64,000 nucleotides of DNA from Hydrogenophaga sp. (GTDB taxonomy: Bacteria > Pseudomonadota > Gammaproteobacteria > Burkholderiales > Burkholderiaceae_C): NCBI GenBank assembly GCA_011391595.1, contig JAABQG010000007.1, forward strand, positions 1-64,000, in the 5' to 3' direction. The position numbers were made by a program, and so were the translations under genes. Below the pieces are notes generated by a model. That model was not told where the DNA came from. It saw only the letters and a program-made list of their open reading frames with translations, and did not search any database. Of this stretch, positions 3,467 through 5,483 are shown piece after piece; within the stretch, counting starts at the first letter, position 1, and the number at the start of each line of letters is the position of its first letter.

Positions 3467-3535
3467 CCCTGGCAGCCGTTCGTGGATCGAGACCGTCAAG
3501 CGACGGTTCGCCAGCCTTGGACTTATACTAACTTC

Positions 3536-3604
3536 AAGCGCCGATTTGCTCCAGCTTGCGGGCGCCGAAACTCCAGCGTTTCGAAATACGGCTAAAGAGG
3601 GAAT
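3536..3604 (+). ncRNA. SAM-II-like riboswitch upstream of metX
   Basis: The H-type pseudoknot layout of SAM-II can be followed: GCGCC (3538-3542) pairs with GGCGC (3561-3565), the first loop begins GATTT and ends TTGC, and the 3' strand has the conserved GCTAAA (3591-3596) followed by AGAGGGA. TCC in loop 1 can pair with GGA in the tail. An extra small stem CGAAAC/GTTTCG sits in the variable part of the third loop. SAM-II elements control metX/metA-type genes, and a terminator and metX follow immediately. Confidence 0.7.
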
Positions 3605-3608
3605 CCGC

Positions 3609-3647
3609 AACCCGGTTCCGCCTCCTTGGCGTTACCGGGTTTTTTTG
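3609..3647 (+). terminator. Intrinsic terminator in the metX leader (attenuator)
   Basis: AACCCGGT (3609-3616) pairs with ACCGGGTT (3634-3641), with an inner GCC/GGC stem, and is followed by a run of seven T. It starts five bases after the SAM-II-like element and ends about ten bases before the metX start codon, so it is placed to stop transcription of metXW when S-adenosylmethionine is abundant. Confidence 0.85.
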
Positions 3648-3655
3648 TTTTGACG

Positions 3656-4902
3656 ATGTTTGCCACGCCACAGTCGATGAAATTCGAGGCCGCCATGCCC
3701 TTGCAGAGCGGCGGGTCCATTCGCGACTATTCCCTGGCGTTCGAGACCTATGGCGCGCTCAACGCCGACCGGTCCAACGCGGTGCTGATCTGCCACGCCC
3801 TGAATGCCTCGCACCACGTGGCCGGGGTGTACGCCGGCCAGGACAAATCCGAGGGCTGGTGGGACAACATGATCGGTCCCGGCAAACCGGTCGATACCGA
3901 CCGCTTCTTCGTGATCGGCGTCAACAACCTCGGCTCCTGTTTCGGCTCGACCGGCCCGCGGGACATGAACCCGGATACCGGCCGCGTCTATGGTGCCGAC
4001 TTCCCCGTGGTCACGGTCGAGGACTGGGTCAGCGCGCAGGCGCGGCTGCTCGATGCGCTGGGGATCAATCAACTGGCCGCGGTCATGGGCGGCAGCCTCG
4101 GCGGGATGCAAGCCTTGTCGTGGACGCTGCAATTCCCGGACCGTGTGCGCCACGCCGTTGTGATCGCCAGCGCACCCAACCTCACCGCCGAAAACATTGC
4201 CTTCAACGAAGTGGCGCGCCGCGCCATCGTGACCGACCCCGATTTCCACGCTGGCCACTTCTACGAGCACGGCGTGCTGCCGAAGCGCGGCCTGCGTATC
4301 GCGCGCATGGTGGGCCACATCACTTACCTCAGCGACGACGTGATGAACGAGAAGTTCGGCCGCACGCTAAAGGCCCCCACGCTCCCCGCTTCGCGTGGTT
4401 CGCGCCCCCCGAGGGGGCTCACCCGCCTGGGGGCGGCCCGGCGGCGGGCGGCGCGATCCGCGACTACCTGTACACCACGCAGGACGTGGAATTCCAGATC
4501 GAGAGCTACCTGCGCTACCAGGGCGACAAGTTCAGCGAGTACTTCGACGCCAACACCTACCTGCTGATCACCCGCGCGCTGGACTATTTCGACCCGGCGC
4601 GCCGCTTTGGCGGCGACCTGAGCGCCGCACTGGCGAAGGCAACCAGCCAGTTCCTGGTGGTGAGTTTCACGACCGACTGGCGTTTCAGTCCCAAACGCAG
4701 CCGGGAGATCGTCCGGGCGCTGGTCGACAACCGGCGCGATGTGAGCTATGCGGAAATTGATGCGCCGCACGGGCATGACGCCTTCCTGCTTGACGACCCC
4801 CGTTACATCGGTGTTGTGCGCTCCTACTTCGAAGGCATTGCGGCCGAAAGGCCCAGCCCTGGCGTCCCGCCTGAAACGACTCGCGCGGGAGCGGCACCAT
4901 GA
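3656..4902 (+). pseudogene. metX: Homoserine O-acetyltransferase, frameshifted
   Basis: MetX makes O-acetylhomoserine from acetyl-CoA and homoserine, the first committed step of methionine synthesis. From the start at 3656 the first frame encodes the N-terminal two thirds, including the nucleophile S147 in GGSLGG. The rest of the alpha/beta-hydrolase, with the catalytic Asp (FTTDW) and His (APHGHD), continues in the -1 frame from about 4455 to 4902. The span is 1247 bases, not a multiple of three. The break coincides with a GC-rich palindromic insert at 4373-4454, absent from normal MetX proteins. The gene ends by an ATGA overlap with metW, as in intact metXW operons. A sequencing error in the C-run near 4404-4410 could also explain the shift. 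Confidence 0.8.
4373..4454. repeat. GC-rich palindromic (REP-like) insert in metX
   Basis: This segment is made of nested palindromes such as GCCCCCC-GA-GGGGGC (about 4404-4418) and encodes a Pro/Arg/Gly-rich stretch with no counterpart in MetX. Elements of this composition are common between genes in Comamonadaceae genomes; that statement is from general knowledge, not from a second copy here. It sits in the lid region of the enzyme, between the residues FGRTL and IRDYLY. Confidence 0.6.
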
Positions 4903-5483
4903 GCGATGCCCTGATCCAGCAATCCATTGCCCGGCTGGTGCCACAAGGCTCAAGGGTCCTGGACCTCGGCTGCGGCGACGGGGCGCTGCTGGACCTGCTG
5001 CAGCGCGAACGCGGCTGCAGCGGCTATGGCGTCGAGCTCGACGATGCCAATGTGCAGGCCTGTGTGCAGCGCGGCGTGAACGTGATCCAGCTCAACCTGG
5101 ACGAAGGCCTGACGATGTTTGGCGACCAGTCCTTCGACGTGGTGTTGCAGATCGACACCCTGCAACACCTGCGAAACGCTGAAGTGATGCTGCGCGAGAC
5201 CGCGCGCGTGGGCCGCCTGGGCATCGTCGCCTTCCCCAACTTTGCGCACTGGCCGAACCGCCTCAGCGTGTTGCTAGGCCGAATGCCCGTGACCCGGCGC
5301 CTGCCTTACCAGTGGTACGACACGCCCAACATCCGGGTCGGCACGCATGCCGATTTTGCCGATCTGGCCGGAAAGAATTCACTGCGCATTCTCGACGCCT
5401 TCGGCCTGCAGGAAGGCCGCGAAGTGCGCTGGTTGCCCAACCTTCGCGCCGGCACGGCGGTGTTCAAGTTCGAGCGCGGCTGA
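4899..5483 (+). CDS. metW: Methionine biosynthesis protein MetW
   Basis: This is a 194-residue class I SAM-dependent methyltransferase fold. Motif I is LDLGCGDG at residues 21-28, and the family-specific segment NFAHWPNRL lies near 113-121. MetW forms a complex with MetX and is needed for homoserine O-acetyltransferase activity in several bacteria; its own methyl acceptor is not settled. The start codon overlaps the metX stop (ATGA), so the two are translationally coupled and share the SAM-II-like leader. MetW itself is intact while metX is frame-shifted. Confidence 0.93.

Follow-up and report, generated by a model that had tools for sequence, protein, structure and literature searches.

What controls the methionine genes near the start of this contig? 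In the 64,000-nt stretch of Hydrogenophaga sp. DNA analysed here (the window), a short leader in front of metX and metW carries the motifs of the SAM-II aptamer together with an additional hairpin. Judging by sequence comparison, it most likely functions as a SAM-II-type switch of methionine synthesis and is one instance of a recurring, poorly annotated variant marked by that hairpin, P3. The features on which this reading is built are as follows.

3524-3529, + strand: probable -10 element TATACT, 8 nt upstream of P1, matching TATAAT at five of six positions
3538-3600, + strand: SAM-II-type aptamer, upstream of metX and followed by an intrinsic terminator
3538-3542, + strand: P1 5' strand GCGCC, partner of 3561-3565
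3543-3559, + strand: loop 1, with the GATTT third strand (presumed SAM pocket) followed by CTTGC as 5' strand of the putative P2 pseudoknot; within it GATTTG at 3543-3548 and TTGC at 3556-3559
3561-3565, + strand: P1 3' strand GGCGC, partner of 3538-3542
3566-3583, + strand: P3, inserted hairpin, CGAAAC (3566-3571) with GTTTCG (3578-3583)
3584-3587, + strand: AAAT joint, from P3 to P2
3591-3600, + strand: P2 pseudoknot 3' strand GCTAAA (3591-3596) and short tail GAGG
3591-3606, + strand: proposed antiterminator 5' arm, GCTAAAGAGGGAATCC
3609-3646, + strand: intrinsic terminator, stem AACCCGGT / ACCGGGTT with arms at about 3609-3616 and 3634-3641, inner CGCC/GGCG stem, T7 at 3640-3646; -22.2 kcal/mol
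3614-3630, + strand: proposed antiterminator 3' arm, GGTTCCGCCTCCTTGGC, inside the terminator
3656-4887, + strand: metX (homoserine O-acyltransferase), in two frames, about 3656-4378 and 4441-4887, first ATG at 3656
4899-5483, + strand: metW (TIGR02081, 239.9 bits, cut-off 189.5)

The aptamer, its inserted hairpin and their detection

Across 24 sequences near that of the window, P1 is formed throughout (five pairs, 100% paired), one of its pairs being changed on both sides and four invariant, and GATTTG, TTGC and GCTAAA are invariant and stand in SAM-II order. The pairing of TTGC with GCTAAA in P2 is possible in all 24 and never varies, so that covariation is uninformative on P2. In P3 all six pairs have both-side changes and 91.7% of cells are paired, which bears out the extra CGAAAC/GTTTCG stem of the first-pass annotation. 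The structure as a whole is 96.7% paired and reaches at most 46.1% when the partners are slid; its covariation score was attained by none of 500 shuffles and its number of both-side-changed pairs by 6 of 500. The number of further pair types over the whole structure was no higher than in shuffles, 251 of 500 reaching it. Upstream, a -10 element matching at five or more positions lies within 20 nt of P1 at 90 of 209 loci and in 11 of 418 control windows; a two-hexamer scan of the leader returned no promoter and no clear -35.

Is the inserted hairpin a peculiarity of this genome? Comparison of sequences indicates that it is not, as the extra stem recurs in related bacteria. The distance between TTGC and GCTAAA in 213 parsed loci has two modes, one at 18 nt (76 loci) and one at 28 nt or more (119 loci); a further 15 loci fall at 19-27 nt and 3 under 18 nt. 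The set is biased, 105 of the 119 inserted loci having come from a pattern that requires a long insert. A search with the long-insert-tolerant pattern gave at least 116 stretches, 104 of them with a distance of 28 nt or more, the other 12 of the 116 being either not inserted to that length or uncounted (short forms, repeats and one unparsed). This pattern fixes part of P1, and its stretches are therefore uninformative on P1 variation. Where selection was independent of the insert, P3 was present in 25 of 150 family matches, among the matches listed. In 115 of the 119 inserted loci the insert hairpin begins 0-3 nt past the fourth pair of P1, and it folds better than dinucleotide shuffles at p 0.015 in the window and at p <= 0.05 in 76 of the 119, window included. 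An AAAT joint at the same spacing before GCTAAA is shared by 95 of the 119 inserted loci and 78 of the 94 standard ones; L040 and L135, inserted loci without the joint, may be something else. Loci with repeated sequence were merged, and L018 and L044 are dropped or unparsed rows.

How visible is such an RNA to covariance models? A model built from 22 P3-bearing sequences, with the window and its genus held out, scores the element at 83.7 bits (E 3.1e-23), the next match in the 64 kb being 8.9 bits (E 0.69), and the SAM-II layout of P1, GATTT, TTGC and GCTAAA is indeed present where the first-pass annotation had placed it. The same model has its only strong match in this genome at the window element (next best E 0.44) and at E <= 0.001 matches 157 of 321 genomes of the class, own included; most of the listed class matches are 52-57 nt long and so are probably forms without P3. 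Rfam RF00521 (SAM-II) gives a partial match in the window, to P1 and loop 1 only, of 13.1 bits (E 1.4, cut-off 36), and SAM_V (RF01826) gives none up to E 10. The element is missed by RF00521 because the P3 hairpin stands between P1 and the AAAU joint. The outcome of the Rfam check suggested earlier is therefore divided: neither of the two Rfam models recovers the element, and a model that includes P3 does. Likewise, the lack of a covariance-model hit, which had been named as grounds for abandoning the SAM-II reading, is real for the Rfam model and disappears once P3 is included. A simple fold statistic on the 124-nt leader, slightly better than shuffles (z -1.86), is uninformative on a pseudoknot.

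The only window matches at Rfam gathering score are a manganese riboswitch and a chrB-b RNA. The former (RF00080, 2692-2871, 83.2 bits) lies just upstream of the SAM-II leader and precedes an ORF with two EMGDKTQ repeats that matches no NCBIfam family; RF00080 is a neighbour of the SAM-II leader at three other loci too, scoring over cut-off in L002 and L013 and under it in L006. The chrB-b RNA (RF03086, 6279-6335, 40.4 bits) comes directly before an ORF that by appearance resembles a chromate transporter. By E-value the top window match was tfoR (20.4 bits, cut-off 70); its alignment finishes on the terminator hairpin, and it was disregarded.

Beyond the window, a DNA search found the leader in 20 of 40 genomes, own included, one of them (L018) by a chance match; the best-kept block was GCGCCGATTTG..CAGCTTGCGGGCGC. 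Among the 20 loci scanned (19 other genomes and the own genome), three exceed the RF00521 cut-off (L010, L019 and L020, 38.4-39.8 bits), all without P3, and other loci fall under it at 24.4-35 bits. At E <= 0.01, RF00521 matches 141 of 300 genomes of the order and none of 14 control genomes, and it is over cut-off in 51 of the 300. None of 18 P3-bearing loci reaches any SAM cut-off in Rfam, and ten P3-bearing loci have no RF00521 or SAM_V match up to E 10. A 21-base core pattern is present in 187 of 250 family genomes, own included, and in 158 of 300 of the order; its backwards control gave none in either scan among the matches listed.

Downstream genes and the state of the locus

The placement upstream of metX holds: the ORF from 3656 matches the MetX profile NF047916 of NCBIfam, whose positions 5-241 are covered by 3656-4375 and 247-369 by the second piece of the gene. 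The gene itself is interrupted at 4373-4447, where a 65-nt net insertion relative to the same-genus gene changes the frame. The insertion is GC-rich and holds the palindrome CGCCCCCCGAGGGGGC. A search for a second metX in the own assembly of 126 contigs returned none but two short weak matches. The break could be real or an assembly error.

Could the locus be a decaying remnant, with metX broken and the switch no longer under selection? The insertion and frame change do fall in the only metX found in the assembly, and a mismatch makes the antiterminator weaker than its same-genus counterpart. The aptamer has kept its motifs, however, the two metX pieces retain 92% and 85% protein identity to a same-genus relative, and in an assembly of so many contigs the break may be an error; we consider decay unlikely.

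The ORFs behind these aptamers often belong to methionine or SAM metabolism. Scanned ORFs behind inserted forms (101) gave 61 Abhydrolase_1 (MetX family), 21 Cys_Met_Meta_PP, 9 ABC_tran, 8 NIL, 5 MetW, 4 S-methyl_trans and 2 Pterin_bind; those behind other forms (84) gave 50 Abhydrolase_1, 12 Cys_Met_Meta_PP, 11 MetW, 3 S-methyl_trans, 3 Pterin_bind, 3 SAM synthetase and single others, and in both counts one protein may match several families. Left out of these scans by length, or as further ORFs of a locus, were 14 of the 115 ORFs behind inserted forms and 5 of the 89 behind other forms. Several downstream ORFs were picked in the wrong frame, among them that of the window (L001), which matches no family. 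Ten downstream proteins compared with named models comprise two MetX, five O-succinylhomoserine sulfhydrylases and three from Legionellaceae loci whose best match, MetN, is under the model cut-off. In Legionellaceae, the inserted SAM-II cores L023, L041 and L059 lie upstream of a MetN-like methionine ABC transporter gene; at eight such loci a lax finder reported two terminators, so control there may be translational.

Terminator, candidate antiterminator and probable mode of control

What would the aptamer act upon in the window? The intrinsic terminator that had been coupled to it is there, with its stem beginning 12 nt after GCTAAA and not five bases after it as first described. Within 120 nt of GCTAAA, terminators were found at 166 of 213 loci, whereas random windows drawn from these loci gave 32 of 391; this count comes from a stricter finder with random windows, since the first one was too lax (86 of 213 reversed controls). 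Behind the remaining 47 of the 213 aptamers no terminator was found. A separate terminator scan gave one site, with a stem unlike the folded one and hardly above shuffles (mean 0.6).

The candidate antiterminator draws on the pseudoknot. In the genus of the window, GCUAAAGAGGGAAUCC, which is the P2 3' strand with its tail, is complementary to GGUUCCGxCUCUUUGGC inside the terminator. The duplex of 3591-3606 with 3614-3630 is predicted at -16.1 kcal/mol in the window, where it has one A-C mismatch, and at -20.3 in the stronger same-genus version. An unconstrained fold of the same-genus leader L002 contains P1, P3 and the antiterminator (-42.8 kcal/mol); a second fold, made to mimic the SAM-bound pseudoknot by forcing P1 and keeping loop 1 and GCUAAA single-stranded, contains the terminator and lacks P3. 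The unconstrained fold of the window has the terminator and a competing pairing of GAUUUGCUC with GAGGGAAUC, the antiterminator being absent, and that of L134 has the terminator. With P1 forced and the P2 strands blocked, P3 is kept in L134 and lost in the window and L002. In a window segment starting 7 nt before GCTAAA, the antiterminator is the best fold (-15.2) as long as the terminator 3' arm is incomplete and is overtaken by the terminator (-23.1) when that arm is complete.

How general is this pairing? When partners were swapped between loci, the native one ranked in the best 5% at 39 of 164 loci, against 13 with scrambled queries, and the native energy fell in the worse half of swaps at 63 of 164, so the pairing is not general. 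Earlier swap tests were weak (17 and 23 of 167 in the best 5%), and all of them, the 164-locus test included, use terminator sites from the lax finder. The partners change together between lineages, as in GGGAA/UUCCG and GGCAA/UUGCG. The antiterminator platform is supported near the window and not as a general property. Loop 1 tested against the terminator is a weaker candidate than the GCUAAA strand, with the native partner in the best 5% at 25 of 164 loci (control 12). The loop 1 complement AAGCTG occurs in 32 of 167 terminators, where shuffles average 1.1, an excess suggesting that some lineages may use the loop 1 strand in a second antiterminator design.

It is highly probable, in our view, that the metX-metW leader is a cis-acting OFF switch that terminates transcription and is composed of a SAM-II-type pseudoknot aptamer with P3. 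P1, the pocket motifs, P3, the terminator and the complementarity of the P2 3' strand to the terminator are all recognised by sequence comparison; that SAM is the ligand we infer from the invariant pocket and the downstream genes. When SAM is scarce, GCUAAAGAGGGAAUCC would pair with the emerging GGUUCCGCCUCCUUGGC, the antiterminator-side bases with matching bases in the terminator being GCUAAAGAGG, and this antiterminator would let RNA polymerase enter metX. When SAM is bound, the pseudoknot would be stabilised and GCUAAA locked in P2, which would block the antiterminator; the terminator would then form and metX transcription would stop.

Might SAM instead be bound for translational or mixed control, with the GAGG after GCUAAA acting as an occluded ribosome site? 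In the accessible text of PMC9373788, the GAGG that follows the aptamer of Sinorhizobium metA is a Shine-Dalgarno sequence at a distance, and by eye no Shine-Dalgarno sequence lies between the T tract and the metX ATG in the window. Against this, a terminator separates GAGG from the start codon here, and terminators follow the majority of aptamers by the count given above; such control is quite improbable.

Relation to SAM-II, SAM-V and orphan elements

Where does a terminating switch with P3 stand among the named classes? With SAM-II (RF00521 SAM_alpha, the metA element) the window RNA has in common P1, the GATTT third strand, a predicted TTGC/GCTAAA pseudoknot and the AAAU joint, as well as a terminator and methionine genes downstream. 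It differs in adding P3 between P1 and the joint, a hairpin that SAM-II lacks according to the available text of PMC6061858, and in scoring far under the cut-off. It is a SAM-II-type variant by fold and pocket motifs, and not an RF00521 member by score. The crystal work on SAM-V, in the same portion of PMC6061858, describes a stem-loop P3 after P1, followed by adenines that face the P1 minor groove. The window RNA likewise has a stem-loop directly after P1 and before an A-rich joint, and it shares the pocket core with SAM-V (RF01826); its P3 would set the AAAU joint against P1 as the P3 of SAM-V does. SAM-V is described there as translational, with a P2a of 2 bp, whereas a terminator follows the aptamer in the window RNA. 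The SAM-V trait of a Shine-Dalgarno sequence occluded in a short P2a is absent here, the terminator standing between aptamer and start codon.

Could the SAM-II fold have been kept while its ligand changed, for instance to SAH, with P3 marking the change? Riboswitch folds of other classes are known to have changed ligand, and the tested P3 loci stand apart from Rfam SAM-II by score. We give this possibility very little credence, however: GATTT, TTGC and GCTAAA are invariant and, in our mapping onto the structures as described in the consulted text of PMC6061858, hold the SAM contacts; the genes most often found downstream are of the MetX and Cys_Met_Meta_PP families, whether or not the aptamer has P3; and the OFF-type arrangement lies upstream of methionine synthesis.

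The first-pass annotation expected an example from a Burkholderiales-like genome, with the extra stem, to enlarge the known set; that membership of the order alone would do so is not supported. Corbino et al. 2005 (PMC1273637), in the text available, report SAM-II mostly from alpha-proteobacteria with few elsewhere, and the legend of their alignment names Bordetella bronchiseptica. The accessible part of Barrick and Breaker 2007 (PMC2258182) describes terminators with SAM-II in beta-proteobacteria, and a figure there may mark an insertion site at the position of P3; the RF00521 matches across the order, counted above, point the same way. SAM-II in Burkholderiales is thus already known.

Two orphan elements appear to belong here. 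The first is the metXZ element of Leyn et al. 2014 (PMC4239095), presented in the text at hand as a novel element before metXW or metZ in beta-proteobacteria, its ligand left open. As described in that text, it shares with the window RNA its place, its taxa (Comamonadaceae included), a two-part pseudoknot and a terminator, and from this published description we infer that it is the same RNA. Its authors offered the speculation that the terminator is contacted by GC-rich regions 3 and 4; in the window RNA the P2 3' strand is the better candidate. That metXZ forms a class of its own, with a different ligand and a different antiterminator, as the 2014 text proposes in calling it novel and confining SAM_alpha to Rhizobiales and Rhodobacterales, is most improbable, because the 2014 scan, by its available description, used Rfam models, which miss the tested P3-bearing forms, because the described two-part pseudoknot and terminator before metXW or metZ fit P1 and P2 here, and because RF00521 has matches in 141 of the 300 genomes of the order.

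The second is Bp2_287 (RF02424), typed as a Burkholderia sRNA and lying on the opposite strand, whereas the window RNA is a cis leader. Khoo et al. 2012 (PMC3521395), in the text accessible, list Bp2_Cand287 among the candidates detected by RT-PCR and suggest a cis-acting element of methionine metabolism. The reverse complement of the RF02424 consensus reads P1-GATTTG-CAGCTTGC-P1-P3-GAAACAGCTAA...terminator, in letters GCGTCGATTTGATTTCAGCTTGCGGACGCGGG[6]TCCCGAAACAGCTAA...terminator, which is a P3-bearing SAM-II leader. RF02424 matches 90 of 300 genomes of the order, over cut-off in three, and at E <= 0.01 one of 14 control genomes, under cut-off. Of its 20 best loci (L240-L259), 17 of them under the family cut-off, 19 carry a SAM-II core on the opposite strand and none carries one on the same strand; the twentieth, in G288, overlaps an RF00521 match on the other strand. 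The window scores 14.5 bits against RF02424, on the minus strand (cut-off 70). By sequence, then, RF02424 seems to describe the strand antisense to P3-bearing SAM-II leaders. A 2024 review (PMC10987360, available text) groups RIT77 with BTH_s31 and Bp2_287 as an expressed sRNA, and RIT77 could accordingly be a terminated SAM-II leader; a 2018 paper (PMC6337395), in the portion available, gives Bp2_287 by name only. A literature search over titles and abstract openings, with subscription papers mostly uncovered, showed no link of metXZ or Bp2_287 to SAM-II.

Three points are new as far as the literature searched extends: a P3-bearing SAM-II subtype that Rfam misses at all 18 loci tested, a likely antiterminator formed from the pseudoknot 3' strand, and the merging into SAM-II of the orphan elements metXZ (by our reading of its description) and Bp2_287/RF02424. 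A broader view joins these points: P3-bearing aptamers would form a large unannotated subclass linking SAM-II and SAM-V, which would also take in metXZ, the wrong-strand Bp2_287 and, probably, RIT77/BTH_s31 as terminated leaders, and whose antiterminator would use the SAM-contacting GCUAAA, so that ligand pocket and expression platform would share bases. We regard this combined view as evenly poised between right and wrong. If it is true, the Rfam SAM-II model needs a P3-bearing companion, the Rfam sRNA family RF02424 needs correction of strand and type, and annotations would change in many Burkholderiales and some Legionellaceae. The P3 forms make the relation between SAM-II and SAM-V directly testable. 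For the biology of the group, the control of metX and metZ in beta-proteobacteria, for which the 2014 description left the ligand open, would then be SAM feedback exerted by one riboswitch class.
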